Shown here piece by piece: positions 35,134-58,211 of a stretch of 64,000 bases of DNA. The translations under genes and the position numbers were made by a program. Each line of letters begins with the position of its first letter. Position 1 is the first letter of the stretch. Origin of the DNA: Oceanibaculum nanhaiense (GTDB taxonomy: Bacteria > Pseudomonadota > Alphaproteobacteria > Oceanibaculales > Oceanibaculaceae); contig NZ_MPOB01000008.1 of NCBI RefSeq assembly GCF_002148795.1, positions 62,001 to 126,000 on the forward strand, written 5' to 3'. The notes beneath the pieces are model-generated. The model was not told the origin of the DNA and did no database searches. It saw only the letters and a list, made by a program, of their open reading frames with translations.

Positions 35134-35347
35134 CAGCCCCGGCCCTCCGGGCGGCAGCTTTCGGGCATGGGGGTACGCTTGCGCTTCTTGCGCATGATGG
35201 TTCCTTTCCTGGAAACGCAAAAAGCCGCCTGGATTTCTCCAGACGGCTCTTACGGTTGGTTGTGATGGTGTGCGGTGGTGATCTAGCCGGCACCGCGCCG
35301 GTTCGTGTGGAGAACGGAGGTGATTGCCCCCGCTCCCCTATGCGCCC

Positions 35348-37335: not shown

Positions 37336-38001
37336 CTATTTACACCGGTTGCTGTCCGGCGCTTGCACGTGGTACAGGCCGTGCCGCACGAACTTCATAT
37401 AGGCCTCGATCACCCAGTCCGGCATTGCGCCGGGGCGATCCCCGCTAAAGCCGTAGCGCATGGACAGATAGCCGCGCGCCGCCAGCAGCATGAAGGCGAC
37501 CACCTCCAGCTCGCGCTTTTCGTAGCCCGGCATCTCGCCGCGTTCCCAGCTGCGCGAAAGCGCGCGGGCATAGCCACCGGCGATCGCGTCGATATGCTGG
37601 CGGTGCGCCTTCGGCGCCAGCGTCTCAGCCTCATACAGGATGCGGTAGAATTCCGGATAGTCGCGCAGGAAGTCGAAATAGGCGCGGATGCGCCGCTCCT
37701 CGCGTTCCGGACCGGTCGCCTCGCCCATCCGGCTGCGAATATAGGCGAGCATCTTATCGCCGAGCGCCGGCAGCAACTGGTCGAACAGATCCTGCCGCGA
37801 GTCGAAATAATTGTAGAAGGTACCTTGCGCCACCTTGGCCCGCGCCGTGATGCGGGAAATCGACGCCTCGGCATACCCATGCTCGCCGACCATTTCGGCC
37901 GCCGCCTGGAACAGCGCCTGGCGTGTTTCCTCGCTGCGTTCGGCGCGCGAACGGCGCCGCGGCTTGTCCGTTTGCTGTTCCTTTTCCTTGGTCGCGCTCA
38001 C
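37336..38001 (-). CDS. TetR/AcrR family transcriptional regulator
   Basis: The 221-aa protein has a Lys/Arg-rich leader, then the TetR DNA-binding domain (about residues 24-70) with the helix-turn-helix ISRITARAKVAQGTFYNYFDSRQDLF. The C-terminal ligand domain contains FLRDYPEFYRILYEAE, a pattern seen in regulators of acyl-CoA and fatty-acid genes. It is the last gene of the - strand island and probably controls it, responding to an acyl-CoA or the substrate; this is inference from position. Confidence 0.88.
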   Translation of the reverse strand: MSATKEKEQQTDKPRRRSRAERSEETRQALFQAAAEMVGEHGYAEASISRITARAKVAQGTFYNYFDSRQDLFDQLLPALGDKMLAYIRSRMGEATGPEREERRIRAYFDFLRDYPEFYRILYEAETLAPKAHRQHIDAIAGGYARALSRSWERGEMPGYEKRELEVVAFMLLAARGYLSMRYGFSGDRPGAMPDWVIEAYMKFVRHGLYHVQAPDSNRCK

Positions 38002-38044
38002 GCATACCCCTCGTTGAAAGCCGCTGCACCGCCATTTACGCGAT

Positions 38045-38080
38045 GGCGTGCGACCATATATTCCACGCGCCGAAGATCAA
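38045..38080 (-). promoter_or_regulatory. Candidate tetR promoter and operator
   Basis: On the - strand TTGATC (38075-38080) and TATGGT (38053-38058) form a possible promoter with a 16-nt spacer. GGCGTG (38045-38050) and CACGCGCC (38064-38071) form an imperfect inverted repeat around it, suitable for a TetR dimer. Tentative. Confidence 0.3.
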
Positions 38081-38095
38081 GCGTTTGCGCATACA

Positions 38096-39454
38096 TCAGG
38101 CCGCCTTGCGCAGGCCGGGCAGCGCGGCAAAGCAGCGCAGCACCTCGCCGATATCGCCATCCGGCAGCCCCCAGACAAAAGCCTCCAGCCGATCATACAC
38201 GGCGGACGGGATATCCGTCTCCGCCCCGACCCGGCGGATCAGCGCCGAATCGGTCGCCCGGTCATAGGCGAAATCGTCGGTGGTCTTGCTCTCGTACCGT
38301 TCGATTATCGCGCCATCCTCCAGCGTCACCGCAATGCGGCAGCACAGCGTCGGCACGGCCTCGTCGCTGACCAGCGTGACACGCCCGACCAGCGCGTTCA
38401 CGGTGGCATCGTCATAGGTCGTCATCATCCGCATGGTCGGCGTGCCGCGCTCCAGCGTGGCGGCGATGCAGAACGGGATGCTCATCAGCGTGCCGGAGAT
38501 GGAGGTGAACGGCCCCGCCGAATCCATACCGGCATAGCCCGTCTCGTAAGGATTCATCGTCACCGTCACCGATTTGATCTTCCGGCCGGCAATTTCCTGC
38601 TTCATTTCCAGCGCCGCCGTTACCGGAGTCTGGTTGAAGGCGCAGACCGGGAAAGGCTTGAAGGTCACGCGCAGGATCGCCCAATCCGTGCCAAGCGCCG
38701 CCGCCAGCGCATCGACGTCGCAGTCGGTACGGGCGAAGGCGCGCACGAAGCCCGCCTTGCCCTCGATGGCATGTGGCGCGGAGACGGAACCGGCGCGCGC
38801 CAGCTCAGCAGCAACGAACCCGTTTCGGCCGGCCATGCCCACCTGATAGCGCCATTCGTCCGTGCCGTCGGCGAAGCTCTGCAATATGCCGCCGGCGAAG
38901 CTGGCCGCATTGGCGATGGCCGCCTGGGTCTGCGCCGCATCGAGGCCCATCAGCTTCGCCGACGCCGCCGCTGCCGCCAGCGTGCCGTAGATCGGCGAGG
39001 CGCGCAGCCCGGCCGGCGTGGTCTTGCCGGCATAGGCCTTTTCCAGCAGTCCGCCAACCTCATAGCCGGCGATCAGCGCCGGTAGCAGCCGGGCGACGGG
39101 GTAGTTGCGCGCCTCGGTGATCGCCGTCAGCAGCGGGATCATGATCGCGCCCAGATGCGCCGCACCGCAGGTATCCTCCTGCGCTCTTCCATGGAACAAC
39201 GCAGAATTAGCCAGCGCCGCGCCGGTGATAGAGGTCTTGCGGCCGTCGCCCAGCAGCGTCGCGCCATCGGCCCGCTCGCCATCCATTGCCAGCGCCGCCC
39301 GGCGCGCGACCGGGGCATAAGGCGTGTTGTGACAACCAAGGCCGATACCGTAGCCATTCAGCAGGCAGACCCGCGCCTTCTCCACCACTTCCGGCGGCAG
39401 CGTCGCAAGCTCGAGGGAGACAACGAAATCGGCGAGTGTGCGGGAGAGTGTCAT
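38096..39454 (-). CDS. MmgE/PrpD family protein
   Basis: The family includes 2-methylcitrate dehydratase, cis-aconitate decarboxylase and many uncharacterised dehydratases. The 452-aa protein has the N-terminal LADFVVSLELATLPPEVVEKAR opening, the ANSALFHGRAQEDT segment near residue 82 with the histidine region, and GLRASPIYGTLAAAAASAKLMGL near residue 150, all typical. Length is normal. It closes a run of six tightly packed genes on the - strand. A hydration/dehydration or decarboxylation step on a small carboxylate is likely, but the substrate is open. Confidence 0.88.
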   Translation of the reverse strand: MTLSRTLADFVVSLELATLPPEVVEKARVCLLNGYGIGLGCHNTPYAPVARRAALAMDGERADGATLLGDGRKTSITGAALANSALFHGRAQEDTCGAAHLGAIMIPLLTAITEARNYPVARLLPALIAGYEVGGLLEKAYAGKTTPAGLRASPIYGTLAAAAASAKLMGLDAAQTQAAIANAASFAGGILQSFADGTDEWRYQVGMAGRNGFVAAELARAGSVSAPHAIEGKAGFVRAFARTDCDVDALAAALGTDWAILRVTFKPFPVCAFNQTPVTAALEMKQEIAGRKIKSVTVTMNPYETGYAGMDSAGPFTSISGTLMSIPFCIAATLERGTPTMRMMTTYDDATVNALVGRVTLVSDEAVPTLCCRIAVTLEDGAIIERYESKTTDDFAYDRATDSALIRRVGAETDIPSAVYDRLEAFVWGLPDGDIGEVLRCFAALPGLRKAA

Positions 39455-39466
39455 GGCGTCCTCCTC

Positions 39467-40990
39467 CTATTCGGCTTGTTGCCGGTCAGCCTGGTCCGGC
39501 ATAAATTCGTCGCGCAGCACGCGCTTCAGAATCTTGCCGGACGGGTTGCGCGGCAGTGCCTCGCGCAGATGCAGTTCTTTCGGCACCTTGAAGCTGGCCA
39601 GATGCTGGCGGCAATGGTCGCGCATCACCTCATAGGCCAGGGTCTGGCCCGGCTTCGGCACGATCACGGCCACCGGCTTCTCGCCCCAGTGCTCGTCCGG
39701 CACACCGATCACGGCGACCTCGCTGACCTGCGGCATCTGGTAGATCACGCGCTCCACCTCCGACGAGGCGATGTTCTCGCCGCCGGACAGGATCATGTCC
39801 TTCTTGCGATCCGTGATGTAGAGGAAGCCGTCGGCATCGACATAGCCGACATCGCCGCTGCGGAACCAGCCCACGGGGTAGAAGCTGGCCTCGGTCTTCT
39901 CCGGGTCTTTCCAGTAACCCTTGGTGACCTTCGGTCCGCGCACGCAGATTTCGCCCTGCTGGCCCGCCGGAACCTCCCGGCCCTCATCATCAGTGATGCG
40001 GATTTCGCAATGCGGCGTCGGCCGGCCGGTGGAACCGATCTTGGCGATCTCCATGCCAGCCTCCATCAGCGTGTCGCCGCTGCAGGTCTCGGTCAGGCCA
40101 TAGCCATCGATATAGCGGCCATTGGGGAACAGCTCAGTAAAGGCGCGGATGCGGGATTCCGGCGTCTTCTCGCCGCCGCCGATGGTCCAGCGCAGGCTGG
40201 TGAGGTCGTATTTCTGCCGCCCGTCCAGAGTCAGCGCGCGGCCCAGCATGACCGGGGCCATCCAGGCGCAGGTCAGCCTCTCGCGCTCGATAGCGGCCAG
40301 CATCCAGGCCGGATCGAAATCGCGCAGGATGCACATGGTTCCGCCAACCCACAGCACCGCCGTGCCCGGCAGGTCGAAGGCGCCGACATGGTAGAGCGGT
40401 CCAACGGTCAGGATGCGGTCATCCCGGGTCAATCCCAGGAAGATCGCCTGCTCCATGTTCTTCCAATAGTAATTGTCGTAGCTGTGCATCACCCCCTTGG
40501 GACGGTCGGTCGTGCCCGACGTGTACATCAGCCGGAACAGATCGCCCGGCTGGCGCGGCCGCTGCGGCGGGATGACGGACGGTATGCCGGTCAGCGCGCG
40601 GATATCCTTCTGTGCCGCCGCGTCCAGCAGCACTGTTTTCGGCAGATCGCGCACCACCGGCTGGAATTCCGCGTCGGCGAAGACCAGCTTTGCCTCGGCA
40701 TTGCCGGTGATATAGGCGACCTCATCCGCCGCCAGCCGGAAATTCACCGGCAGGAAGACGCCGCCCAGATAGGAGGTGGCGAAGGCGATCTCAATGAAGG
40801 AAGACGAGTTCTTCATGAACACCGCCACCACGTCGCCCGCGCCAATACCCTGCCCGTCCATCCACGCCGCCAGCGCCTGGATGCGTGCCCACAGATCGGC
40901 ATAGGTGATGCGCTGGTCCTCATAGATCAGCGCCAGCTGGTCCGGGGTACGGGTGGCATGGAAGCGGATGAAGGCGCTGAGATTGACCAT
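39467..40990 (-). CDS. AMP-dependent acyl-CoA synthetase, long-chain-fatty-acid-ligase type
   Basis: The enzyme should activate a carboxylic acid to its CoA thioester through an acyl-AMP. The 507-aa protein has the P-loop YTSGTTDRPKG near residue 174 with Asp in place of the usual Gly, the YGLTET motif near residue 303, the hinge YITDRKKDMILSGGENIASSEVE near residue 403, and the catalytic lysine in RNPSGKILKR near residue 490. It lies 12 nt from the prpD-like gene and 10 nt from the dehydrogenase. The substrate is not predictable. Confidence 0.88.
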   Translation of the reverse strand: MVNLSAFIRFHATRTPDQLALIYEDQRITYADLWARIQALAAWMDGQGIGAGDVVAVFMKNSSSFIEIAFATSYLGGVFLPVNFRLAADEVAYITGNAEAKLVFADAEFQPVVRDLPKTVLLDAAAQKDIRALTGIPSVIPPQRPRQPGDLFRLMYTSGTTDRPKGVMHSYDNYYWKNMEQAIFLGLTRDDRILTVGPLYHVGAFDLPGTAVLWVGGTMCILRDFDPAWMLAAIERERLTCAWMAPVMLGRALTLDGRQKYDLTSLRWTIGGGEKTPESRIRAFTELFPNGRYIDGYGLTETCSGDTLMEAGMEIAKIGSTGRPTPHCEIRITDDEGREVPAGQQGEICVRGPKVTKGYWKDPEKTEASFYPVGWFRSGDVGYVDADGFLYITDRKKDMILSGGENIASSEVERVIYQMPQVSEVAVIGVPDEHWGEKPVAVIVPKPGQTLAYEVMRDHCRQHLASFKVPKELHLREALPRNPSGKILKRVLRDEFMPDQADRQQAE

Positions 40991-41000
40991 GGCCGTCTGC

Positions 41001-42173
41001 TCAGTAGGAACGGGGCATCTTGAGGTTATGGATGGAGATGAAATTCAGGATCATCTCTTCCGAGATCGGCGCGATGCGGAACAGCCTGGCGTCGCGCCAC
41101 AGCCGCTCGACATAGCTTTCCTTGGCATAACCCATGCCGCCCATGGTCTGCATCGCGCGGTCTGTCGCCTGGGCGCTGGCATGGCCGGCAATCAGCTTGG
41201 CGATATTCGCCTCGCTGCCATAGGGCAGGCCGCTGTCGAACAGGCTGGCCGCCTTGTAGTTCATCAGCCGCGCGGTCTCGGTCTGGGCATAAGCCTCGGC
41301 CAGCGGGAACTGCAGGCCCTGGTAGGAACCGATGGGCGCGCCGCGGAACACCTTGCGCTCGCCGGCATATTTCACCGCCAGCTCGATGGCCAGTTGCGCC
41401 GTGCCGACCAGGCAGGCGGTGGTGACGATGCGCTCCGTGTTCAGCACGTCCAGCAACTCATGCCAGCCCATGTCGAGGGTGCCGACGATCTCGTCCGGCC
41501 CGGCCCAGACATCGTCCAGAAACACCATGGAGGAGGTCAGCGTGTTGGTGCCCACCTTCTCGATCGGCGTGTGGCTCAGCCCCTCGCGGTCGCGGTCGAG
41601 CAGGAACATGGTGATGCCGTCGGTGCGGCGCTTCACATCCTCGGCCTTCTGGGTGCGGGCGATCACCAGCACCTTGTCGGCCTGAGGCACGCCGGTAATC
41701 CAGATCTTGCGGCCATTGATGCGGAAGCCATTGCCCTCCCGCCTGGCGAAGGTCTGGATTTCCAGGCTGTTGGAGCCGGCATCGGGTTCCGTCAGCGCCA
41801 TGCAGAACAGCATCTCGCCGCTGACCAGCTTCGGCAGGTAGTCGCGCTTCATCTGCGCCGTGCCGAAGCGCGAGATGCCGACGCCGCCAAAGATCGGGTT
41901 GTTCATGAACAGCTGCCCGACGGTCGAGCCAGCGCCGCTGGCAGCCAGCGTCTCGACGATCATCGCCAGTTCCAGCATGCCCAGGCCGCTGCCGCCATGT
42001 TCTTCCGGCAGGGCCGCGGCGGCGAGGCCGGAAGAACAGATCGCCTTCCAGATTTCAGTGGGGAACTGCTTCTTGGCGTCAATCTCGCGCCAGTATTCCA
42101 GACCATATTCCCCGCCCACCTTGCGGGCGGTCTCGATGATCATCTTCTGCTGCTCGTTAAGCAGGAAATCCAT
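41001..42173 (-). CDS. Acyl-CoA dehydrogenase
   Basis: A FAD enzyme that introduces an alpha,beta double bond into an acyl-CoA and passes electrons to ETF. From the ATG at 42173 it is 390 aa; a longer start at 42269 is rejected because it runs into the E2 gene. MALTEPDAGSNS near residue 122 is the FAD/acyl-CoA signature and MQTMGGMGYAKESYVERLWRDAR near residue 347 is typical. The following segment reads RIAPISEEMILN rather than the common YEGTSEIQ form, suggesting an unusual substrate pocket. Confidence 0.9.
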   Translation of the reverse strand: MDFLLNEQQKMIIETARKVGGEYGLEYWREIDAKKQFPTEIWKAICSSGLAAAALPEEHGGSGLGMLELAMIVETLAASGAGSTVGQLFMNNPIFGGVGISRFGTAQMKRDYLPKLVSGEMLFCMALTEPDAGSNSLEIQTFARREGNGFRINGRKIWITGVPQADKVLVIARTQKAEDVKRRTDGITMFLLDRDREGLSHTPIEKVGTNTLTSSMVFLDDVWAGPDEIVGTLDMGWHELLDVLNTERIVTTACLVGTAQLAIELAVKYAGERKVFRGAPIGSYQGLQFPLAEAYAQTETARLMNYKAASLFDSGLPYGSEANIAKLIAGHASAQATDRAMQTMGGMGYAKESYVERLWRDARLFRIAPISEEMILNFISIHNLKMPRSY

Positions 42174-42183
42174 GGTCAGTGCC

Positions 42184-43386
42184 TCAACCTTCGGTGAGAA
42201 GAAGCGAATGCGGGGCCTCCAGCGCCTCGGCAACGGCCTGCAACAGCCGGGCCGCCAGAACGCCGTCATAGACGCGGTGATCGCAGGACAGGGTGAGCGT
42301 CATTTCCTGGCGCAGCACCGGCCTGCCCATACTGTCCGGGCGGAAGATCTGCTCCACCGCGCCGACCCCCAGAATGGCGGATTGCGGCGGGCTGATGATC
42401 GGCGTCAGTGCCTTCGCGCCGAACATGCCGAGGTTGGAGACGCTGATTGCCCCGCCCGTCATGTCGGCAGCGTTCAGCCGGCCCTCGCGCGCCTTGGCGG
42501 CAGCGGCGGCGCTGGCGCCCGCCAGCCGGTCAAGCGGCAAGCGCCCGGCATCGCGCAGGATGGGGATGAACAGCCCGTCCTCGCTGTTCACCACCATGCC
42601 GACATCGGTGGCGGCGAAGGCAATATGGGCGTCGTGATCCCAGATGCGGTTGGCCCGTGGCACGGCGAGCAGCGCCCGGCCGACCGCCTTCAGCACCATG
42701 TCGTTGACGCTGATCTTCCGACCGCCGGACTGGTTCAGCTGCCCGCGCAGATCCAGCAGCGCGCCGATATCGGCGGCGCGGACCACCTGGAAATCCGGAA
42801 TCTCGCGCCTGGCCGTCACGACCCGGCGCACCATCGACAGGTATCTGGCCGGCAGCGCGATACGCTCGCCCTCGGCAGACGGTGGAGCGGCTGGAGCCGT
42901 TTTCGCCGCCGCCTCGACATCGGCCGCCTTGATGCGCCCATCCGGCCCACTGCCGATGATGCCCGTCAGATCGACGCCCTGCGCCCTGGCGATGCGGCGC
43001 GCGAGCGGGGTCGCGCGGATGCGCTCGCCAGAGGCTACCGGCAGATTTTCCCCTCTGGCCCGCGGCTTTGGCGCTTCCACAGCCGGCCCGGGCGCATCTG
43101 GCGCCTCGGCGATGAACCCTTTCCCGGTCCAGCGGGCGACAGGCGTGCCGACCGGTACCGTCTCGCCGGCCTGGACCAGAATCTCGGCGATTGTGCCGGC
43201 GCTGGGCGCTTCGACCTCATTGGCGATCTTGTCGGTCTCGACGACGAAGATCACCGCCCCGGCTGGCACATTGTCGCCGGGCTTCACCTTCCAGTCCGCC
43301 AGCACGCCTTCCGTCATGGTGAGGCCCAGCTTCGGCATCACCAGATCGGTCAGCACGGGCGCGTTATTTGCCGGTGAAGACGGCAT
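42184..43386 (-). CDS. 2-oxo acid dehydrogenase E2, lipoyl dihydrolipoamide acyltransferase
   Basis: E2 takes the acyl group from E1 on a lipoyl arm and transfers it to CoA. The 400-aa protein has one lipoyl domain (VMPKLGLTMTEG and the lipoylated Lys in VETDKIANEV, about residues 17-65), a linker, the E3-binding domain (RATPLARRIARAQGVDLTGI near residue 131) and the catalytic core ending with SCDHRVYDGVLAARLL (His and Asp). No E3 gene is in the cluster. The start at 43386 overlaps the hydratase end by 23 nt. Confidence 0.9.
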   Translation of the reverse strand: MPSSPANNAPVLTDLVMPKLGLTMTEGVLADWKVKPGDNVPAGAVIFVVETDKIANEVEAPSAGTIAEILVQAGETVPVGTPVARWTGKGFIAEAPDAPGPAVEAPKPRARGENLPVASGERIRATPLARRIARAQGVDLTGIIGSGPDGRIKAADVEAAAKTAPAAPPSAEGERIALPARYLSMVRRVVTARREIPDFQVVRAADIGALLDLRGQLNQSGGRKISVNDMVLKAVGRALLAVPRANRIWDHDAHIAFAATDVGMVVNSEDGLFIPILRDAGRLPLDRLAGASAAAAAKAREGRLNAADMTGGAISVSNLGMFGAKALTPIISPPQSAILGVGAVEQIFRPDSMGRPVLRQEMTLTLSCDHRVYDGVLAARLLQAVAEALEAPHSLLLTEG

Positions 43387-44149
43387 TCCGCTTCTCCACA
43401 AAGGCGGTGCATCCCTCATGCGCGTCGGCGCTGTCCAACACCAGGCTGACCATCGCCTGCTCATGCGCCAGCGCGGAGGGCAGCGCCATGTCGGCGCCGT
43501 TGTTCAGCGTGCGCTTCAGCATCTTCAGCACCAGCGGGGATTTGTGGGCGATGCGCTCGGCCAGCGCCATCACCTCCTCCATCAGATTTTCCTTCGGAAC
43601 GGCGCGGTTGATGAGACCCATCGCCGCCGCCTCTGCGGCGGTCACATGCGTTCCCGCGAACATCAGTTCTTTCGCCTTGCACAGCGGCACCTGGCGGATC
43701 ATGCGCTGGGTGCCGCCTGCGCCGGGGAACAGGCCCAGCGTGATCTCCGGCAGGCCCAGCCGCGCAGTATCGGCGGCGATCCGGATATCCAGCGACAGCA
43801 GAAACTCCGTCCCGCCGCCCAGCGCCCAGCCATTGATCGCGGCGATGGTCGGCTTGTCGCTGGTCTCGAAGCGGCGGAATACGCGGTGAATGATCTCGGC
43901 GAATTCCTGATAATGCGGCAGCCCCTGCCGGGAATTCAGGTCGGCGATGTCGCCGCCGGCCACAAAGGCCTTCTCGCCTGCGCCGGTGACCACGATAACG
44001 CGCACATCCGCATTCTTCTCCAGCCCGTCCAGCGCCTGTTCCAGCGCCAGCACGGTCGGCACGTCGAGCGCGTTCATCACCGCCGGCCGGTTCACCGTGA
44101 TGATGCCGATTGCCCCCTTCACTTCGGTCAGGACTGTCTGCTCGCTCAT
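43364..44149 (-). CDS. Enoyl-CoA hydratase/isomerase family protein
   Basis: The 261-aa crotonase-fold protein has AGEKAFVAGGDIADL near residue 57 and INGWALGGGTEFLLSLDIRI near residue 105, the two oxyanion-hole loops, and LPEITLGLFPGAGGTQRM near residue 133 with the catalytic Glu region; LGLFPGAGGTQR is typical of true hydratases with both Glu-like positions. It should hydrate the enoyl-CoA made by the dehydrogenase. It lies 23 nt after E1 beta and overlaps E2. Confidence 0.9.
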   Translation of the reverse strand: MSEQTVLTEVKGAIGIITVNRPAVMNALDVPTVLALEQALDGLEKNADVRVIVVTGAGEKAFVAGGDIADLNSRQGLPHYQEFAEIIHRVFRRFETSDKPTIAAINGWALGGGTEFLLSLDIRIAADTARLGLPEITLGLFPGAGGTQRMIRQVPLCKAKELMFAGTHVTAAEAAAMGLINRAVPKENLMEEVMALAERIAHKSPLVLKMLKRTLNNGADMALPSALAHEQAMVSLVLDSADAHEGCTAFVEKRNAVFTGK

Positions 44150-44172
44150 CGGGAATGATCCTCGTTACGGTT

Positions 44173-45147
44173 TCAGGCCAGGGTCTTGCGGACGGCATCG
44201 GCGATTCGGCCGGCATCCGGCAGATAGCCCTGCTCCAGGGTCTTGGCGAACGGCACGGGCATGAAGGGCGCGCCGACACGGACAATCGGGCCGTCCAACT
44301 CGTCGAAGCCGATATCCGCCATGCGCGCCGCGATCTCCGCGCCGATGCCGAAGGCCTCCACCGCCTCATGCGCGACCACCAGCCGGTGGGTGCGCGACAG
44401 GGACTCCAGTACCGCCGCCTCGTCCCAGGGCTGCAGCGAGCGCAGGTCCAGCACCTCGGCCTCCACCCCCTCGCCCGCCAGTGTGTCGGCGGCGTCCAGC
44501 GCGGTGTGAACCGCCGCGCCATAGGTCACGATGGTCGCATCCCGGCCGGGCCGGGCGATGCGGGCCTTGCCGATCTCCACGGCAGGCAGATCGTCGGGCA
44601 CATCCTCCTTGCGGGCATAGAGCGCCTTGTTCTCCACCATGATCACCGGATCGGGATCGTTGATGGCGGCGCGCATCAGCCCATAGGCATCGGCGACGCT
44701 GGCCGGGCACACCACCTTCAGGCCAGGGATATGCGCGAACCACGCCTCCAGGCATTGCGAATGCTGTGGCCCGGCGGAAACGCCGCCGCCATGCGGCAGG
44801 CGCACCACCATCGGCACGCTGCCCTGGCCACCGAACATGAAGCGCGCCTTGGCCGCCTGATTGACGATGGCATCCATCGCAATGGCGACGAAATCCATGA
44901 ACATGATTTCGACCACCGGCCTCAGCCCGGTCATCGCCGCGCCCACGGCGGCACCGACGATGGTGGCTTCCGAGATCGGCGTGTCGCGCACCCGGTCCTC
45001 GCCATAAGCTTCCAGCAAGCCGCGCGTCACGCCGAAGGGGCCGCCGGCGGCTGCGATATCCTCGCCGAACACGATCACGGACGGATCGGCCGCCATGGCG
45101 TCCGACAGGGCCTGGTTCAGCGCACGGACGTAGCGAAGCTCTGCCAT
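44173..45147 (-). CDS. Thiamine-dependent dehydrogenase E1, beta subunit (AcoB-like)
   Basis: The beta subunit completes the thiamine diphosphate site of 2-oxo acid or acetoin dehydrogenases. The 324-aa protein starts AELRYVRALNQALSDAMAAD and has VFGEDIAAAGGPFGVTRGLL near residue 25, DTPISEATIVGAAVGAAMTG near residue 55 and the C-terminal HEAVEAFGIGAEIAARM block. Length and pattern match AcoB/PdhB. It follows E1 alpha after 2 nt. Confidence 0.9.
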   Translation of the reverse strand: MAELRYVRALNQALSDAMAADPSVIVFGEDIAAAGGPFGVTRGLLEAYGEDRVRDTPISEATIVGAAVGAAMTGLRPVVEIMFMDFVAIAMDAIVNQAAKARFMFGGQGSVPMVVRLPHGGGVSAGPQHSQCLEAWFAHIPGLKVVCPASVADAYGLMRAAINDPDPVIMVENKALYARKEDVPDDLPAVEIGKARIARPGRDATIVTYGAAVHTALDAADTLAGEGVEAEVLDLRSLQPWDEAAVLESLSRTHRLVVAHEAVEAFGIGAEIAARMADIGFDELDGPIVRVGAPFMPVPFAKTLEQGYLPDAGRIADAVRKTLA

Positions 45148-45149
45148 CG

Positions 45150-46169: not shown

Positions 46170-46851
46170 CGTTCGCCCTCAACCCCTCGATTGTATCGCG
46201 ATAGACGATCTGCCCCTTATCGACCACGGTCGCATGAGTGGCGATGCCGAGGCAGAAATGCATGTTCTGTTCGGCCAGCAGGATGGTCGCCCCCATGTCC
46301 CGCAATCGCCGGATCAGATCGCCGATGGCCTGGACGATGATTGGTGCCAGCCCCTCGGACGGCTCGTCCAGCAGCAGGATTTCCGGATTGCCCATCAGGG
46401 TGCGGGCGATGGTCAGCATCTGCTGCTCGCCGCCGGACAGGCGGCCGGCCATGCGGTGGCGCATGCCGGCGAGGATCGGGAACGCCTCATAGACCCGCTC
46501 CAGAGTCCAGTAATCCTCGCCATTCGGACCTTTCTTGGTGCCAATGACGAGATTGTCCTCGATGCTGTGTTCCGGGAACACCTGCCGGTCTTCCGGTACG
46601 TAGCCGATGCCGGCGCGGGCGATGCGGAAAGGTTTGCGGCCCGAGACTGTCACGCCGGCCAGATTGATCTCGCCCCGGCGTGGCGGGGCGATCCCGGCGA
46701 TGGCCTTGAAGGTCGTGCTCTTGCCCGCGCCGTTGCGGCCAAGCAGCGCCATGGTCTGGCCCTTCTCCACCGTCAGGTCGAGGCCGAACAGAATCTGGCT
46801 GGCGCCGTAGAACACGTCGATGCCCTTCACTTCCAGCATGATCTCGGCCAT
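46138..46851 (-). CDS. livF: Liv-type ABC transporter ATPase LivF (system 1)
   Basis: One of the two ATPases of a branched-chain amino acid/organic acid importer. The 237-aa protein has Walker A LLGRNGAGKSTTFKAI near residue 37, the signature LSGGEQQMLTIAR near residue 140, Walker B ILLLDEPSEGLAP near residue 160 and the LAEQNMHFCLGI tail typical of LivF. It lies 3 nt after livG. Confidence 0.93.
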   Translation of the reverse strand: MAEIMLEVKGIDVFYGASQILFGLDLTVEKGQTMALLGRNGAGKSTTFKAIAGIAPPRRGEINLAGVTVSGRKPFRIARAGIGYVPEDRQVFPEHSIEDNLVIGTKKGPNGEDYWTLERVYEAFPILAGMRHRMAGRLSGGEQQMLTIARTLMGNPEILLLDEPSEGLAPIIVQAIGDLIRRLRDMGATILLAEQNMHFCLGIATHATVVDKGQIVYRDTIEGLRANDAIKQRYLAI

Positions 46852-46854
46852 CCC

Positions 46855-47622
46855 TCAGTCCTCCCCGACGGATTCGGTGATGTGATGGTCGGTGCCGAGA
46901 TAGGCGTCGATCACATCCTTGTTGCGGCGGATGTCGTCGGGCGTGCCCTCGGCCAGGACTGCGCCGTACTTCAGCACGCGGATGGTCTGGGCGATCTTGA
47001 AGACGATATCCATATCGTGCTCGATGAAGATGAGGGTCATCTTCTCCGCCTCCCACAGGCGATAGACCTTGTCGATCATCTGCCAGCGCTCTTCCGGCCC
47101 CATGCCCGCCGTCGGCTCGTCGAGCAGCAGCACCTTCGGCTCCATCGCCAGCGCCAGCGCGATATCGAGCAGCTTCTGGTCGCCATGCGACAGGTTGCGC
47201 GACAGCACCGCCGCCTTCGCCGAAAGCCCCAGCAGCGCCATGATCTCCTCCACCCGCGCCTCGGCGCTCTGCAGCGGGAAGCGAGTCAGCACCTGCGTGG
47301 ATTGCCGGCGGTGCGAAATGACGGCCGCCATCAGACTCTCGTGCAGGGTGAGACTCGGGAAGATCGAAGCTACCTGGAAGGCGCGGCCAATGCCCTTGCG
47401 CACGATTTCCAGGCTGGAGCGGCCGACGATATCCTCGCCATCGAACAGCACGCGCCCGCGATCCGGACGGATATGGCCGGAAATCAGGTTGAAAAAGGTC
47501 GTCTTGCCGGCCCCGTTCGGCCCGATGATCGCAGTCAGCGAGCCGGTCGGGAAGTCCAGCGAGACATCGTTCATCGCCACGACGCCGCCGAAGGCCTTGT
47601 ATAGATTCTCGACTTTCAGCAT
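46855..47622 (-). CDS. livG: Liv-type ABC transporter ATPase LivG (system 1)
   Basis: The second ATPase. From the ATG at 47622 it is 255 aa, with Walker A IIGPNGAGKTTFFNLISG near residue 32, signature LSHGDQKLLDIALALA (H-for-G, usual in LivG) near residue 150 and Walker B VLLLDEPTAGMGPEE. The longer frame up to 47910 is a shadow within the SDR gene and is rejected. It sits between livF and the SDR gene. Confidence 0.92.
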   Translation of the reverse strand: MLKVENLYKAFGGVVAMNDVSLDFPTGSLTAIIGPNGAGKTTFFNLISGHIRPDRGRVLFDGEDIVGRSSLEIVRKGIGRAFQVASIFPSLTLHESLMAAVISHRRQSTQVLTRFPLQSAEARVEEIMALLGLSAKAAVLSRNLSHGDQKLLDIALALAMEPKVLLLDEPTAGMGPEERWQMIDKVYRLWEAEKMTLIFIEHDMDIVFKIAQTIRVLKYGAVLAEGTPDDIRRNKDVIDAYLGTDHHITESVGED

Positions 47623-47627
47623 CGCGG

Positions 47628-48416
47628 CTAACTCCGCTTCGGCGGCACGCCGCCATAGGTGTTCCATGGCGTCGCCACCAGCCAGCCGGCATCGACCGGC
47701 AGGGTGACGCCGGTGATCCCCGAGGCATCGTCGGAAACCAGGAAGCTGCACGCCTTCGCCACCTCCTCCACGCCGACCAGCCGGCCGAAGGCGGAGTTCT
47801 CCATCAGCGCCGCCGGGTCGCGCTTGCCATCGTCGATTGCCGCCTGCAGGGCGGGCGTCGCCACATAGCCGGGGGCGATGGCGTTTACCCGTACGCCGGA
47901 ACGGCCCCATTCGGCGGCCAGGCCTGCGGTGATCGAGGCGACCGCCGCCTTCGCCGGCCCGTAGGCATGCAGCGGTGTCGAACGGAAGGTCGTCACCGAG
48001 GCGATGTTGACGATGGCGCCCTGCCCCCGCTGCGCCATGCGCTTGCCGAAGGCGACATTGCTGACATAGACGCCGCGTTGATCGACCGCGACGACGCGGT
48101 CCCAGACCGCCATCGGCAGTTCCTCCGGCGGCAAGGGCGGCTGCAGCACGCCGGCCGAGGCGACCAGGATATCGACCGGCCCGATCTCGCGGGCAACCCG
48201 TTCGGCCAGTACCTCGGTCTCCTCCACGCTGGTCACGTCCAGCCGGGCGTGGATGGCGCCCTTCAGATCGGCCGCCACCCGTTGCGCCAGCTCTTCATTG
48301 ATGTCGGCGATGACCAGCCGCGCGCCGCGCGCCGCCATGTCGCGGGCGCAGGCTTCGCCGATGCCGCTGGCACCGCCGGTGACCACGGCGACCCTGCCGT
48401 CGAGCGCTCGGTTCAT
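47628..48416 (-). CDS. SDR-family NAD(P)-dependent dehydrogenase
   Basis: The 262-aa protein has the NAD(P) loop VVTGGASGIGEACARDM near residue 12, the NIAS segment near residue 138 with catalytic Ser, and YGPAKAAV near residue 152 (YxxxK). Asp/Ile after the loop (VIADINEE) favours NAD over NADP. It is embedded between livG and livM, overlapping livM by 4 nt, so it is transcribed with the importer. A 3-hydroxyacyl-CoA or secondary alcohol dehydrogenase role would fit the pathway. Confidence 0.9.
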   Translation of the reverse strand: MNRALDGRVAVVTGGASGIGEACARDMAARGARLVIADINEELAQRVAADLKGAIHARLDVTSVEETEVLAERVAREIGPVDILVASAGVLQPPLPPEELPMAVWDRVVAVDQRGVYVSNVAFGKRMAQRGQGAIVNIASVTTFRSTPLHAYGPAKAAVASITAGLAAEWGRSGVRVNAIAPGYVATPALQAAIDDGKRDPAALMENSAFGRLVGVEEVAKACSFLVSDDASGITGVTLPVDAGWLVATPWNTYGGVPPKRS

Positions 48417-49396
48417 CGGCCTCCCTCCTTCTCGCTACGCCGGGTCCGGCGATCCAGCAACCAGTGGAAGACGAAGTCGGCCAGGCCGCGCCGCAACCCC
48501 AGTACGAAGACCAGAATGACGGCGCCCAGCACCAACCCGTGATGTTCGGTATAGATCGTCACGAAATGGTTGAGGGTCTGCAGCAGAATGGCGCCGACGA
48601 AGGGGCCCAGGAAAAGCTGCGTGCCACCCAGCATGATCATGAAGATCGCCTCGCCGGACATGGTCCAGAAGGCGAATTCCGGGTAGGCGCCGGAGACGAA
48701 CAGCGCCAGGATGATTCCGCCGACCGAAGCCATGGTCCCGGCAACAACAAAGATCGCCAGCTTCATGCGCACCACGTTCACGCCCAGAAAATTGGCGCGC
48801 AGCGGGTTGTCGCGGATCATCCGCAGTGTATAGCCGAAGGGCGATTGCACGATCTGCCGCATGATCACCATGCAGGCGACGAAGACCACCGAGCAGAACA
48901 TATAGAGCGTCATGCTGTCGTTCAGGTCGATCCCCAGGAAGGCGGGGCGCGGGATGCCGCCCATCAGCCCCTGGTCGCCACCGGTCAGCGACACCCAGGT
49001 CAGGATGATCGAGTGGATGAACATCTGGAAGGCAAGCGTCAGGAACGTGAAATAGATATCCTTCAACCGCACGCAGATCGCGCCGATGACCAGCGCCAGC
49101 AGCGCCGTGCCGCCGACCGCCGCCAGCATCGCCACCGGGATCGACACGTCGCCCGACTGCATCAGCAGGCCGAAGATATAGGCGCCGGAGGCGAAATAGG
49201 CGGCATGGCCGAAGGACACCAGCCCGGTGAAACCGACCAGCAGATTCAAGGACATCGCCAGCAGGCCATAGGCAATGACATAGATGACGAAATCGCGCAT
49301 CGCCGGGTGCGGCACCAGAATGGGCAGCACCAGCAGCCCGGCCAGCAGCAAGCCGGCCCAGGCGAGGTCACGCAAGGAAGACCGGCCCAGCATCAC
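48413..49396 (-). CDS. livM: Liv-type ABC permease LivM (system 1)
   Basis: Inner-membrane permease subunit. The 327-aa polytopic protein has the family-typical LLVGFTGLVSFGHAAYFASGAYI stretch near residue 50 (NLLxGxxGxxSFGHAAF consensus), TLALAFQ-like helices and the MIRDNPLRANFLGVN loop near residue 193. It overlaps livH and the SDR gene by 4 nt each. Confidence 0.92.
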   Translation of the reverse strand: MMLGRSSLRDLAWAGLLLAGLLVLPILVPHPAMRDFVIYVIAYGLLAMSLNLLVGFTGLVSFGHAAYFASGAYIFGLLMQSGDVSIPVAMLAAVGGTALLALVIGAICVRLKDIYFTFLTLAFQMFIHSIILTWVSLTGGDQGLMGGIPRPAFLGIDLNDSMTLYMFCSVVFVACMVIMRQIVQSPFGYTLRMIRDNPLRANFLGVNVVRMKLAIFVVAGTMASVGGIILALFVSGAYPEFAFWTMSGEAIFMIMLGGTQLFLGPFVGAILLQTLNHFVTIYTEHHGLVLGAVILVFVLGLRRGLADFVFHWLLDRRTRRSEKEGGR

Positions 49397-50295
49397 TGCA
49401 CCGGCCGGCCGAACAGGCCACTCGGCTTCACGATAAGGACCAGGGCCATGATGCCGAACATCATGCCATCGACGAACAGCGGGAAGCCCATTGAGCCGAA
49501 GGAGCGCGTCAGGCCGATCAGCAATGCCGCGACGAAGGCGCCCGCGATGGAGCCCATGCCGCCGATCACGGTGACGATGAAGCTTTCAATCAGGATCGAC
49601 AGCCCCATGCCCGGCGTCAGCGTGCGGATCGGCGCGGCCAGCGCACCGGCGGTGCCGGCCAGCAGGCTGCCGATGCCGAAGACGCACGCATAGAGCAGCG
49701 TGGTGTTGATGCCGAGCGCGCCGACCATGGTGGGATTGATCGCGGCAGCGCGCACCACCTTGCCGAAACGGGTCTTGGCGATGCCGATCCAGAGCACCAG
49801 CCCGACGACCGCCGAAATGCCGATCATGAACACATAATAGGAGGGGATATACCCGCCGGCGATCTGCAACGGCGGCAAAGCAAAGGCCTGCGGCATGCCC
49901 ATCAGCTTGTATTCGGCACCGTAGAGGATCTTAACCATGTCATCCAGGATCAGGATGAAGGCATAGCAGACCAGCAGCTGCATCAGCACGTCACGGCCAT
50001 AAACCTTGCTCATGAACAGCCGTTCGAAGGCCATGCCGAAAATGCCGACGCCCAGCGCGCCGGACAGGATTGCCAGGGTGAAACTGTCGGTCAGCTGATA
50101 GGCGCTGAAGGCGAAATACGCCCCGATCATATAGAACGAGCCATGGGCGAAATTGATGACGCCGAGCACTCCGAAGATCAGCGACAGGCCCGATGCCACC
50201 AGGAACAACAACATACCGATGATCAGCCCGGTCGATACCTGTGTAACCGCACAGGACATTGATGACAGGCAGCCCGCGAGTGCTTCCAACTCCAA
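49393..50295 (-). CDS. livH: Liv-type ABC permease LivH (system 1)
   Basis: Second permease. FGVLGVINFAHGSFYMIGAYFAF is the LivH hallmark, and VVRAAAINPTMVGALGINT the cytoplasmic coupling loop. I place the start at TTG 50295 (300 aa), which has GGGAG about 7 nt upstream; an ATG at 50259 (288 aa) is an alternative without a clear ribosome site. The longer frame to 50454 would cross the terminator stem and is rejected. Confidence 0.88.
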   Translation of the reverse strand: MELEALAGCLSSMSCAVTQVSTGLIIGMLLFLVASGLSLIFGVLGVINFAHGSFYMIGAYFAFSAYQLTDSFTLAILSGALGVGIFGMAFERLFMSKVYGRDVLMQLLVCYAFILILDDMVKILYGAEYKLMGMPQAFALPPLQIAGGYIPSYYVFMIGISAVVGLVLWIGIAKTRFGKVVRAAAINPTMVGALGINTTLLYACVFGIGSLLAGTAGALAAPIRTLTPGMGLSILIESFIVTVIGGMGSIAGAFVAALLIGLTRSFGSMGFPLFVDGMMFGIMALVLIVKPSGLFGRPVQ

Positions 50296-50320
50296 GGCCG
50301 TTCTCCCGTAAATTCCGTGG

Positions 50321-50363
50321 AAAAAAGGAGCGGCACCCGGGGAATCCCTTCCCCGGGTGCCGC
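50321..50363 (-). terminator. Rho-independent terminator between the binding-protein gene and livH
   Basis: Read on the - strand, a perfect 13-bp stem (50351-50363 with 50330-50342, loop of 8 nt at 50343-50350) is followed by TTTTTT at 50321-50326. It lies 9 nt after the binding-protein stop. Partial termination here would give many binding-protein copies per transporter. Confidence 0.9.
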
Positions 50364-50371
50364 AAGGTGCG

Positions 50372-51652
50372 TCAGGCGTACCCTTTCCGCTTTTTCCACT
50401 CGGTTTCGAGCTGGATGATTTCCGACCACGCAGGCGCGGTGAAGTTCTCAACATACGGGAACTTGCTGCTCGTCACACCCCAGGCGGCCGGATAGCCGAT
50501 GATGGTGTGATCGTCCGCCCGCATGGTGATCTTATCTTCCACCGCGAAGGGCGAATCCAGCTCCATGCCTTTCACCTCGGCCGCCAGCGCCGCACCGTCA
50601 GTCTTGCCGTTGGTCCGTTTCAGGGCTTCGAAGATGAAATGACAGGCCAGGCGGTTCTGCCAGGACCAGTTGGTCGGCTCCTGTTTGGCGATGCCGTTAT
50701 AGCCCTCGGCGAAGGCCTGATTGCCCGGCTTGTCCGGGTAGAACCGGTTGTAGCGATAGACCGTGTTCAGCCCGGCTGGCAGGTTCTTGATCGCGGTCAG
50801 CACGGGCGGATCACCGAGCCCGCCAGAGAAGAAGGTGATGTTGTTGAACAGGCTGTAGAGGTTCGACTGCTCAATGAAGGCAACGAGATCGCCCCCCCAA
50901 AGCGCCGAATACATCGCCTGCGGCTTCACCTGCAGGATCTTGGTGATGTTCTCGGTGTAGTCTGGCTGGAACAGCTTCGGCCAGACCTGATCGACAACCT
51001 CGACATTGGGATCGAAGACCTTCAGGTATTCCAGGAACTCCGCCGTGTTATCGCGGCCATAGGCGTAATCCGGCGAACAGGTCATCCACTTCTTCAGGCC
51101 CTTGGCTTTGGAGATGACGGAGGCATACTTGCCGCCCGCCACCGCGTCGTGGATGCCCTGGCGCGCACTGCGGAAGGCAGTCTTCACATGCAGCTTCGGA
51201 TCGGCCGTGAGGGTCGAGGATTCCGAGCAGGTATGCAGGCAGAGCACCGACAAATCGCGAATCACCTCATGCACCGCGAAGGAGCCGGAGGAGGCCTCGC
51301 CGTCAATGATGATCTCGCAACCGTCATTGTTGATCAGGTCGCGCGTGACCTTGGCGGCCTCGTCCGGGCGGCCCTTGGAATCGCGGTCGATCAGTTCGAC
51401 CGTGCGGCCGTTCACGCCGCCGGCGGCGTTAAATTCCTGCACCGCCAGCTGCACGGCGGCGCGGCTGGAGGTGCCGAGGATGGCGACGCGACCGGACAGG
51501 ATGGTTGGCATGCCCACGCGGATCACCTTCGCCTGGGCGCCGGCGATATGCGGAAAGCCTGTGATGGTGGTGGCAAAGGCGCCGGCCGCTGCGGCGGAGC
51601 CGGCGCCTTTCAGAATCGTGCGACGCGACACGCCGCTCTTTTTACTGGCCAT
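50372..51652 (-). CDS. ABC transporter substrate-binding protein, Tat-exported (system 1)
   Basis: The 426-aa Leu/Ile/Val-binding-protein family member opens with a twin-arginine signal (SRRTILKGAG, residues 9-18) ending near AHIAGAQA, so it is likely exported folded. The mature part starts KVIRVGMPTILSG, a type 1 periplasmic-binding fold of the kind that often binds amides, urea, or aromatic and short organic acids rather than amino acids. It supplies livHMGF. The terminator behind it should uncouple its level from the permease. Confidence 0.9.
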   Translation of the reverse strand: MASKKSGVSRRTILKGAGSAAAAGAFATTITGFPHIAGAQAKVIRVGMPTILSGRVAILGTSSRAAVQLAVQEFNAAGGVNGRTVELIDRDSKGRPDEAAKVTRDLINNDGCEIIIDGEASSGSFAVHEVIRDLSVLCLHTCSESSTLTADPKLHVKTAFRSARQGIHDAVAGGKYASVISKAKGLKKWMTCSPDYAYGRDNTAEFLEYLKVFDPNVEVVDQVWPKLFQPDYTENITKILQVKPQAMYSALWGGDLVAFIEQSNLYSLFNNITFFSGGLGDPPVLTAIKNLPAGLNTVYRYNRFYPDKPGNQAFAEGYNGIAKQEPTNWSWQNRLACHFIFEALKRTNGKTDGAALAAEVKGMELDSPFAVEDKITMRADDHTIIGYPAAWGVTSSKFPYVENFTAPAWSEIIQLETEWKKRKGYA

Positions 51653-51915
51653 TGATTTCCTCCCTCAGGCCGTTCGGGCGAAAGGAGGTTCGCACGCCGG
51701 CCCCTCTTGTTTGGGTAGCCCGCCGCTACGCCTGACGGGCAACAGGAGTTTGGGGTTGGGAAAGCAACGTCGTCAATAAAAAATGAACTGCGAGTCATAA
51801 ATCATTTTTTGTGCAATGCACCTTCGCGAATGCGAAACTCACCAGCCGCTAGGATTTCCTGATTCACGGTCTCGGCGAGAATCCGGCAGCCGAGCACAGT
51901 CAAATTTACCGAGTT
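51653..51915. promoter_or_regulatory. Intergenic region before the binding-protein gene
   Basis: A 263-nt AT-richer gap between the second CoA ligase and the binding-protein gene, both on -. It contains GTGCA-A-TGCAC at 51811-51821 and TTCGC-GAA-TGCGAA (51824-51837), inverted-repeat candidates for an operator. On - a TTGACG (51771-51776) could be a -35. No gene is seen. Confidence 0.35.
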
Positions 51916-53559
51916 TCATGCCTCTTCTTTCTTCGCCAAGAAGCTCTGCGCTGCAAATTCACGGTCACGCAGCGCGCGCCGCCTGATCTTGCCTGATGCG
52001 GTCTTCGGCAGGTCGGCGGTGAATTCGATGCGGCGCGGATATTTGTACGGGCCGGTCAGACGCTTGCAGTGATCCTGCAGCAGCTTCACGAGGGTATCCT
52101 CGCCGACATGTCCGGCCTTCAGCACGATGAACGCCTTCACCACCTCGCCGCGTTCCTCATGCGGGCTGGCGACGACGGCGCATTCGGCGACGCATTCATG
52201 CTCCATCAGCACATTCTCCACCTCCATCGGGCCGATGCGGTAGCCGGCGGAGTTGATGACATCATCCGAGCGTCCCTCGTAGAACAGATAGCCATCCTCG
52301 TCCATGCGGGCGAGATCGCCGGTCAGGAACCAGTCCGCGCCGCCGATCTTCATGTAATTGGCCGCCGTGCGCTCCGGCTCCTTCCAGTAGCCCAGCATGA
52401 TCTGCGGGTTATCGGCGCGGATCGCCAGCCGGCCGGGTGTACCAGCGGGGGCGAATCTTCCCTCCATGTCGATTACTGCCGCCTCGGTGCCCGGCAGCGG
52501 CTTGCCCATGGAGCCGGGCTTCACCGCCAACGGCGGATAGTTCAGCACCGTCATCAGCGTTTCGGTCTGGCCGTAGCCGTCCAGCAAATCGACGCCGGTC
52601 AGCCGCTTCCAGCCGCGCACAATCTCGGGATTCACGCTTTCGCCGGCCGAAACGGTGAGACGCAGCGCCGACAGATCATGGCCCGACACATCCTCCTGCA
52701 CCAGCCGGCGCAGCTCGGTCGCCGCCGCGCAGAACACCGACACCCGGTGCCGCGCCAGCGTTTCAAGCCGGAGCTTCGGGTCGTAGCGGCCATTATAGAA
52801 AACCACGGTCGATCCACAGCTCCACGGCCCAAAGATGATCGAGGTGCCGGCCTTGCTCCAGCCGGTATCCGCCGTGCACCACATCACATCGTCGGGCGTC
52901 AGCGTCAGCCAGTACCAGGCCGAGACGCGCCAGGCGAAAATGCCCCGGCTGGCATGCAGCACACCCTTGGGATGCCCGGTCGATCCCGACGTATAGTACA
53001 TGATCGCTGGCTCGTCGGCGGCCAGCCGGGCTGGTTCGAACTGGTCCGACGCATCGGCCAGCACCGCGTCGAAATCCTCCCAATCGCCCTCTGCCGCCCC
53101 GACCGACAGGCAGGCCAGCAGATGCTCGCCGGAAGCGAACTTGCCGATATTGGGCAGGGTGGTGATGGCACCCGATGCTTGCGAATTCTTCAGGCGATAG
53201 GCGATGTCGCGCTCGGTCAGCATGTCGATGCAGGGGATCGGGATCGCGCCCAGCTTCAGGCAGCCGACCATCGCCATCTGCCATTCCGGGATGCGCGGCA
53301 GCATGATGATGACGCGGTCGCCGCGCTTTACCCCGCGCACCGCCAGCGCGTTGGCGACCCGGTTCGATAGTTCGGCTATGTCGGCATAGCTGAAACGCCG
53401 CTCGCACCCCCGGTCGTCGCACCAGATCAGCGCCGGATGATCGGGCCGCTCGCGCGCCCAGGCGTCGATCACATCGGCGCCGAAATTGAAGCTCTCGGGC
53501 ACGTCCCAGCGGAAGGCGTCGCGGGCGGCCTCGTAGCTTTCCATCGGTATTCGCTGCAT
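51916..53559 (-). CDS. Acyl-CoA synthetase, medium-chain (MACS) type
   Basis: The 547-aa adenylate-forming ligase has YYTSGSTGHPKGVLH near residue 190, DGYGQTETL near residue 330, the hinge FYEGRSDDVINSAGYRIGP near residue 430 and the catalytic Lys in KTASGKIRRR near residue 524. The SGSTG and SAGYRIGP forms point to the ACSM/medium-chain or aryl acid group, unlike the partner ligase at 39467. It is the first gene of the island and probably activates the imported acid. Confidence 0.9.
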   Translation of the reverse strand: MQRIPMESYEAARDAFRWDVPESFNFGADVIDAWARERPDHPALIWCDDRGCERRFSYADIAELSNRVANALAVRGVKRGDRVIIMLPRIPEWQMAMVGCLKLGAIPIPCIDMLTERDIAYRLKNSQASGAITTLPNIGKFASGEHLLACLSVGAAEGDWEDFDAVLADASDQFEPARLAADEPAIMYYTSGSTGHPKGVLHASRGIFAWRVSAWYWLTLTPDDVMWCTADTGWSKAGTSIIFGPWSCGSTVVFYNGRYDPKLRLETLARHRVSVFCAAATELRRLVQEDVSGHDLSALRLTVSAGESVNPEIVRGWKRLTGVDLLDGYGQTETLMTVLNYPPLAVKPGSMGKPLPGTEAAVIDMEGRFAPAGTPGRLAIRADNPQIMLGYWKEPERTAANYMKIGGADWFLTGDLARMDEDGYLFYEGRSDDVINSAGYRIGPMEVENVLMEHECVAECAVVASPHEERGEVVKAFIVLKAGHVGEDTLVKLLQDHCKRLTGPYKYPRRIEFTADLPKTASGKIRRRALRDREFAAQSFLAKKEEA

Positions 53560-54925: not shown

Positions 54926-55110
54926 TTCTGGCGCTGAGCAGCAGCTGGCTGAAGGGGCTGCATGTGCGCATGGAAATGGCGCCCGGCATGCCGCTCACCG
55001 CCGCACCGCCATCGCCGAGGATGCGGCGCGTCCCCGGCGGCGAAGGCGATCCCGGCCACGGCGGCGCTATCGGCGGCGGGGAGTCTGTCCCCGCCGCGTC
55101 ACTCTCCAGA
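54926..55110. other. Spacer with hairpin after livM (system 2)
   Basis: No credible gene. A 10-bp perfect stem GCGGCGGGGA/TCCCCGCCGC (55073-55082, 55088-55097) lies 14 nt beyond the livM stop on the - strand and may help end that operon, though no T run follows. Confidence 0.45.
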
Positions 55111-56049: not shown

Positions 56050-56062
56050 GCGGCGGCTCCTC

Positions 56063-56950: not shown

Positions 56951-56981
56951 CCCAATCCCCGTCGGTCCGTTCAGGTGACGC

Positions 56982-58193: not shown

Positions 58194-58211
58194 CGTAACC
58201 TCCCTTGGTTA

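Follow-up and report, generated by a model that had tools for sequence, protein, structure and literature searches.

A minus-strand operon at positions 37336-53559 of a 64,000-nucleotide stretch of the Oceanibaculum nanhaiense genome (contig NZ_MPOB01000008.1, positions 62,001 to 126,000; the whole stretch is called the window below) encodes an importer together with a catabolic core, which consists of an acyl-coenzyme A (CoA) ligase, an acyl-CoA dehydrogenase (ACAD), an enoyl-CoA hydratase (ECH), and the thiamine-dependent E1alpha and E1beta and lipoyl E2 of a thiamine/lipoate complex. The operon is not local to O. nanhaiense and recurs widely in Proteobacteria. We tentatively propose that it takes up and degrades a carboxylic acid which bears, or is converted to bear, a keto group at C4, and that an acyloin-cleaving E1/E2 may replace thiolase in this breakdown. 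If true, thiamine/lipoate complexes would gain a catabolic job undescribed in the literature searched, namely breaking a C-C bond of an acyloin attached to CoA, a task that would otherwise fall to thiolase.

Conservation of the core among relatives

A scan of named genomes retrieved 276 relatives of E1alpha, and the best 80 loci, which are the nearest ones, were analyzed. Many of these are truncated at contig ends; 49 are well flanked (8 kb or more of sequence to either side) and the other 31 are short on one side. E1alpha, E1beta, ECH, E2, and ACAD were all present in 47 of the 49 well-flanked loci and followed an identical order in all 47, with the second ligase of the window operon present in 42 of the 49. 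The recurrence of this order indicates that the gene set is more than chance, and also that it is not unique to O. nanhaiense. Counts for the individual genes (best 80 loci, then the well-flanked 49) were 79 and 49 for E1beta, 68 and 47 for ECH, 72 and 49 for E2, 64 and 47 for ACAD, 53 and 42 for the second ligase, 39 and 28 for MmgE, 31 and 25 for the SDR, 42 and 33 for TetR, 26 and 20 for at least three liv genes, and 2 and 1 for the MACS ligase. The full window-like set, the MACS ligase not being required, was found at 14 of the 80 loci.

The cluster is carried by Alpha-, Beta-, and Gammaproteobacteria along with a few doubtful metagenome-assembled genomes, and some copies of the cluster lie on plasmids that are predicted to be conjugative. 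Near-identical clusters occur in Oceanibaculum pacificum (L040) and in another genome of the same genus (G002). Because the cluster is found in many soil and marine Proteobacteria, partly on plasmids, its substrate is probably common. As a separate observation, four loci (L063, L071, L079, and L096) carry E1/E2 genes of the core clade with no adjoining ECH and ACAD.

Phylogeny and motifs of E1

In the E1alpha tree (88 rows, the core being thinned to 46, L127 among them) the core rows formed one branch with an SH-aLRT of 100. Separate branches were formed by the acetoin references with seven relatives (99), by sugar-linked rows (99), by 16 pyruvate-type rows (99; labelled by motif, and the row from the window's own genome also by a nearby E3, rather than by assay), and by three branched-chain-type rows (100; labelled by low identity and motif rather than by a family model). 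The core was likewise a single branch in the E1beta tree (73 rows, core thinned to 32; SH-aLRT 100), in which the acetoin rows were not. Both trees thus place the core E1alpha and E1beta apart from the pyruvate-type and branched-chain-type rows as well as from the acetoin references; placement inside such groups would have counted against the original prediction. The window E1alpha also scored below the cut-offs of the pyruvate dehydrogenase (PDH) models (TIGR03182, 311 versus 394 bits; TIGR03181, 206 versus 411 bits).

The motifs of the window E1alpha are H83-R84 and GHYEGDAQKYR at residues 259-269. Among the aligned core rows, the loop GH[FY]EGDxQxYR with E262 is kept in 78 of 80, and Q266 and the His-Arg pair at 83-84 in 80 of 80. 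All four acetoin rows have the loop GHFEGDAQTY, and 16 of the 18 pyruvate-type rows have GHSMSDP (in the form GHSMSDPxxYR); in each of the four sugar-linked rows the loop is GHS[KR]SDRNRYR. The motif HRGHG occurs in the core and in acetoin-dehydrogenase rows, and YRDHG in pyruvate-type rows. The core differs consistently from the pyruvate-type rows at 31 positions of E1alpha, and at 17 of these it has the acetoin residue. The acetoin-kind loop and these residues speak, with moderate confidence, for an acyloin-type E1alpha, E1beta being non-discriminating.

The sugar-linked E1alpha/E1beta/E2 group (L126, L131, L132, and L133) is a clade of its own with the loop GHSxSDRNRYR. It is found next to sugar transporters of the ABC or PTS kind, along with a gene for either a homoserine-dehydrogenase-like protein or an NAD(P)H oxidoreductase.

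The other core enzymes

The domains of the E2 (lipoyl, E3-binding, and catalytic) are those of a 2-oxo-acid-dehydrogenase-type E2; of 68 aligned rows, all 68 keep the lipoyl Lys and 63 keep the catalytic His. Two E3 genes scoring above the family cut-off lie elsewhere in the window genome. In ECH, E115 and E135, which we take to be the catalytic glutamate pair, are kept in 68 of 68 aligned rows. The ACAD has an invariant E279 (62 of 62 rows), at what is presumably the site of the base in isovaleryl-CoA dehydrogenase, and P401 (61 of 62 rows) where short-chain enzymes align their catalytic Glu. The second ligase scored 821 bits against NCBIfam PRK06145, below the cut-off of 850, and its closest solved chains are 8weu and 8wev (feruloyl-CoA synthetase, E ~1e-89). 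Across the operon proteins, the NCBIfam and Pfam scans gave no above-cut-off model naming a substrate.

Proposed route and its alternatives

In the proposed route, the acid would be taken up by the liv-type importer and the ketone would be set up by the SDR, through which a 4-hydroxy acid would enter, and in relatives also by the MmgE/PrpD protein and an old-yellow-enzyme. The second ligase would then form a 4-oxoacyl-CoA, which ACAD would convert to the 4-oxo-2-enoyl-CoA and ECH would hydrate to a 3-hydroxy-4-oxoacyl-CoA, that is, an acyloin. E1 with thiamine diphosphate would cleave between C3 and C4, and E2 would pass the acyl part via lipoate to CoA, giving R-CO-SCoA, with NADH formed through a shared E3 and 3-oxopropanoyl-CoA left over. 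Each member of the core (ligase, ACAD, ECH, and E1/E2) would thereby be used once and thiolase would be unneeded, and hydration feeding the cleavage step would explain why ECH lies between E1beta and E2. The lack of a thiolase in the window operon, the two E3 genes elsewhere in the genome, and the occurrence of old-yellow-enzyme genes at MmgE-bearing loci of relatives also count in favor of this route.

Replacement of thiolase by acyloin cleavage had already been raised in the original prediction, and the separate E1 clade and the acetoin-kind loop of E1alpha support it as a possibility. The order of steps proposed there, in which the SDR would oxidize the ECH product to a 3-oxoacyl-CoA before E1/E2 act, is one option among others, since hydration of a 4-oxo-2-enoyl-CoA would give the acyloin directly. 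Judging from gene content and residue types, we hold the acyloin type of the E1/E2 reaction with moderate confidence, and the 4-oxo position and every intermediate with weak confidence.

Several observations weigh against a C4-keto acid cleaved as an acyloin. The core E1 clade is distinct from the acetoin clade although the loop is common to both, the deep forks that join the groups of the E1alpha tree point to no particular group as nearest to the core, and HRGHG is found in the sugar-linked rows too, whose loop is different. Of 33 E1beta positions, 15 match the acetoin rows and 15 the branched-chain-type rows. In two of the 49 well-flanked loci (L079 and L096) E1/E2 occur without ECH, ACAD, and ligase, and E1/E2 can therefore work without ECH and ACAD. 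A thiolase-like gene adjoins the core at 9 of the 80 loci. The core route leaves the role of the MmgE/PrpD protein unexplained, an old-yellow-enzyme copy (88% identical) in the window genome lies on contig C4 rather than at the operon, and EthD was not found in the window genome, nor in the relative G003.

A possible but doubtful alternative is that the compound is, or through the SDR becomes, a 2-oxo acid, which E1/E2 would decarboxylate oxidatively to an acyl-CoA for ACAD and ECH, the ligase admitting the free acid. The succession of Bkd, ACAD, and ECH is known from the breakdown of branched-chain amino acids and counts for this route, as do the classical 2-oxo-acid type of the E2 (PF00198) and the 15 of 33 E1beta positions matching branched-chain-type rows. 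However, E1alpha falls outside the pyruvate-type and branched-chain-type rows and below both PDH cut-offs, its loop is of the acetoin kind, and the ligase present at 42 of 49 loci would be redundant if the acyl-CoA came from E1/E2.

Somewhat less probable, and in our view unlikely, is the cleavage of a free acyloin, in a manner resembling butanediol dehydrogenase combined with acetoin dehydrogenase. Here the SDR would oxidize a vicinal diol to an acyloin, E1/E2 would cleave it before CoA is attached, and ligase, ACAD, and ECH would process the acid derived from the aldehyde half. The acetoin-kind loop of E1alpha would fit here too, an SDR adjoins E1/E2 at some loci lacking ECH and ACAD (L063, L071, and L079), and the window SDR weakly matches meso-butanediol dehydrogenase (165 bits against a cut-off of 270). 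Yet ECH stands between E1beta and E2 in 47 of 47 complete loci, tying hydration to cleavage, the operon is without an acoX-like gene, and its E2 is of a different catalytic type.

It is rather improbable that E1/E2 open rings by oxidatively cleaving a cyclic acyloin on the CoA thioester. In such a variant the MmgE/PrpD protein would dehydrate a hydroxy-keto alicyclic acid, an old-yellow-enzyme would reduce the resulting enone, as enzymes of this family often do, and the ligase would make the CoA ester. ACAD and ECH would then put a hydroxyl beside the ring ketone, and thiamine/lipoyl cleavage would yield an open-chain acyl-CoA with an aldehyde end. If true, this would be ring opening on a CoA thioester without thiolase or oxygen.

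A Bad/Mrc-like beta-oxidation of an alicyclic acid, by means of ligase, ACAD, hydratase, SDR, and ring hydrolase and with E1/E2 on a side branch, is highly unlikely. Ligase, ACAD, ECH, and SDR do make up the Bad/Mrc activity set, as far as the available part of PMC4109377 describes it, and the SDR is weakly like cis-4-hydroxycyclohexanecarboxylate dehydrogenase. However, the only crotonase-type gene of the operon encodes a protein with both hydratase glutamates, leaving none for a ring hydrolase, the SDR occurs at 25 of 49 loci versus 49 of 49 for E1/E2, and lipoamide or pyruvate dehydrogenase is unmentioned in that part of the source.

Layout of the operon

The operon comprises fourteen genes from the MACS ligase to MmgE/PrpD, followed by tetR, in the order MACS ligase, livK, livH, livM, SDR, livG, livF, E1alpha, E1beta, ECH, E2, ACAD, second ligase, MmgE/PrpD, tetR. 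All genes are on the minus strand:

51916..53559, minus, MACS-type acyl-CoA ligase, MbcS-like, 547 aa (PF00501/PF13193)
50372..51652, minus, livK-type substrate-binding protein (PF13458)
49393..50259 (longest open reading frame, ORF, to 50454), minus, livH-type permease (PF02653)
48413..49396, minus, livM-type permease (PF02653)
47628..48416, minus, SDR oxidoreductase (PF13561/PF00106)
46855..47622 (longest ORF to 47910), minus, livG-type ATPase (PF00005, PF12399)
46138..46851, minus, livF-type ATPase (PF00005)
45150..46169, minus, E1alpha, of its own clade, core (PF00676)
44173..45147, minus, E1beta, core (PF02779/PF02780)
43364..44149, minus, enoyl-CoA hydratase (ECH), core (PF00378)
42184..43386 (longest ORF to 43464), minus, lipoyl E2 acyltransferase with E3-binding domain, core (PF00364, PF02817, PF00198)
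41001..42173 (longest ORF to 42269), minus, acyl-CoA dehydrogenase (ACAD), core (PF00441/02770/02771)
39467..40990, minus, second acyl-CoA ligase, core (PF00501)
38096..39454, minus, MmgE/PrpD family protein, upper part (PF03972)
37336..38001, minus, TetR regulator (PF00440)

Pfam and NCBIfam scans recovered every gene kind named in the original prediction, including the terminal tetR, whereas its count of thirteen genes up to MmgE/PrpD fell one short. The Pfam scan also bore out that there is no thiolase among the fourteen. The longest-ORF starts of livH, livG, E2, and ACAD sit too far upstream; likely starts, picked by eye from homologous N-termini, are 50259, 47622, 43386, and 42173, respectively. 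With these corrections the gaps from livH to MmgE range from -32 to 23 nt, and the predicted 32-nt overlap of E1alpha with livF stands at 46138-46169. The tight packing that had been described holds for this stretch and not for the operon ends, where spacing is looser (263 nt between the MACS ligase and livK, 112 nt from livK to the probable start of livH, and 94 nt between MmgE and tetR). A common TetR operator palindrome was sought at the window operon and among its relatives, and none was seen.

Putative exchangeable upper part and neighboring genes

An upper part that seems to be exchangeable would comprise the MmgE/PrpD protein, the SDR, and the importer, joined in some relatives by an old-yellow-enzyme. 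The MACS ligase has MbcS as its best NCBIfam model (484 bits, below the cut-off of 850), and its copies in the relatives G001-G003 are 85-94% identical. Both ligases had been placed in one pathway, a view that the comparison makes improbable: the MACS ligase probably lies outside the conserved pathway, because it is found at only 2 of the 80 loci, and these two belong to the same genus as the window. The SDR is below the NCBIfam cut-offs for PRK07231 (201 versus 215 bits), ChcB2 (182 versus 350), and BudC (165 versus 270). For the MmgE/PrpD protein, the structure model (pLDDT 90) indicates a known fold and not a function, its best matches being cis-aconitate decarboxylase (Z 43.5 over 428 residues, 2.4 A) and iminodisuccinate epimerase (Z 42.8); D94 and H100 are kept in 40 of 40 aligned rows. 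That it dehydrates or epimerizes a keto acid is a fair guess and nothing firmer.

Next, 37 loci with an MmgE ORF were compared with the 43 loci without one. In seven Fisher tests, uncorrected and made on related loci, old-yellow-enzyme genes (7 of 37 versus 0 of 43; p 0.003) and EthD genes (6 of 37 versus 0 of 43; p 0.008) were associated with MmgE, and p values for the other families were 0.017 for ACAD2, 0.06 for DctM, 0.17 for thiolase, 0.17 for c14, which looks MaoC-like from its sequence, and 0.29 for Fe-ADH. A second ACAD pair, thiolase-like genes, and TRAP importers were mostly at loci without MmgE. In the Oceanibaculum relative G001 the old-yellow-enzyme gene comes directly after tetR, whereas the 88% identical copy of the window genome is on contig C4 and that of G003 on contig C8, and G002 yields only relatives of 35%; EthD was found in G001 and G002.

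On contig C4 of the window genome (L160, 2637-8353) the neighborhood of the old-yellow-enzyme includes genes for an APH-type kinase, an ACAD, an SDR, and a GntR regulator, which together are reminiscent of the 4-hydroxyacyl-CoA kinase/ACAD route. A link of the core to such a kinase was considered and rejected: one APH-type kinase gene lies beside the core, at L089, and one near the window-genome old-yellow-enzyme, and no recurrence was seen at thresholds of E 1e-20 and at least 38% identity. The neighbors of the core in relatives were also considered as a clue to the substrate and are too varied (liv, TRAP, TctC, or SSF importers; Fe-alcohol dehydrogenase; luciferase-like monooxygenases; amidohydrolase), none of them fixing it. 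On a Rhizobium lusitanum plasmid (L122) the core is accompanied by a P450 system, by SDRs and a hydrolase, and by a flavoprotein with a weak match to Baeyer-Villiger monooxygenases, a combination that has the appearance of a whole pathway for some oxygenated ring compound; the P450 was rejected as a pointer to the compound, its nearest chains being CYP105-type with no single compound indicated. Near a core-clade locus (L061, 7708-9813), a permease and a strictosidine-synthase/SMP-30-like domain are fused in one ORF, an arrangement that recurs in three loci.

The operon is bordered by remnants of two different transposases (36063-36901 and 53918-54871). Directly upstream, past the transposase remnant, lies a second complete liv-type importer (livM, livH, livK, livF, and livG; 54962-59697, minus strand), and a tRNA-Gln (34342) and a Bro-N ORF (34600-35220) are also near the operon.

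Comparison with known systems

No published operon matching the gene set was found in the literature searched, most subscription journals being outside its scope, which agrees with the original prediction in that no characterized pathway with exactly this set is known to it. The MmgE/PrpD protein shares its fold with cis-aconitate decarboxylase, iminodisuccinate epimerase, and PrpD (Z 43.5, 42.8, and 36.2), but identity is about 20% and the window protein is without Lys at the aligned site, the Lys that we take to be catalytic in cis-aconitate decarboxylase.

Known routes for 4-hydroxy and 4-oxo acids (Lva and ACAD10-ACAD11) employ a kinase and a phosphate-eliminating ACAD, according to the part of PMC11342911 consulted. 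The window route would serve the same substrate class as described there. Unlike Lva, the window has no relative of the 4-hydroxyacyl-CoA kinase at E 1e-3, and its ACAD is 32% identical to the one beside the APH-type kinase elsewhere in the genome. The Mrc ring-opening pathway includes a ligase, a hydratase, and an SDR, in the portion of PMC4109377 available. Ligase, ACAD, hydratase, and SDR are common to Bad/Mrc and the window, but the latter has E1/E2 and no second crotonase as 2-ketocyclohexanecarboxyl-CoA hydrolase.

With the Bkd pathway the operon shares the joint presence of E1/E2, ACAD, and ECH; it differs in that E1alpha lies outside that group and has another loop, and in that a ligase belongs to the core. 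The likeness to AcoABC consists of the E1alpha loop (GHFEGDAQ), the HRGHG motif, and the E1alpha/E1beta/E2 set. On the other hand, the window E1 is in a separate clade and joined to ligase, ACAD, and ECH, an acoX-like NAD kinase gene present at four acetoin reference loci is absent from the operon, and the E2 is of the PF00198 kind whereas those four loci are annotated with an acetoin-type acetyltransferase. By the tests run, the module belongs to none of the three groups (acetoin, pyruvate, and branched-chain), and it resembles an acetoin dehydrogenase coupled to half a turn of beta-oxidation.

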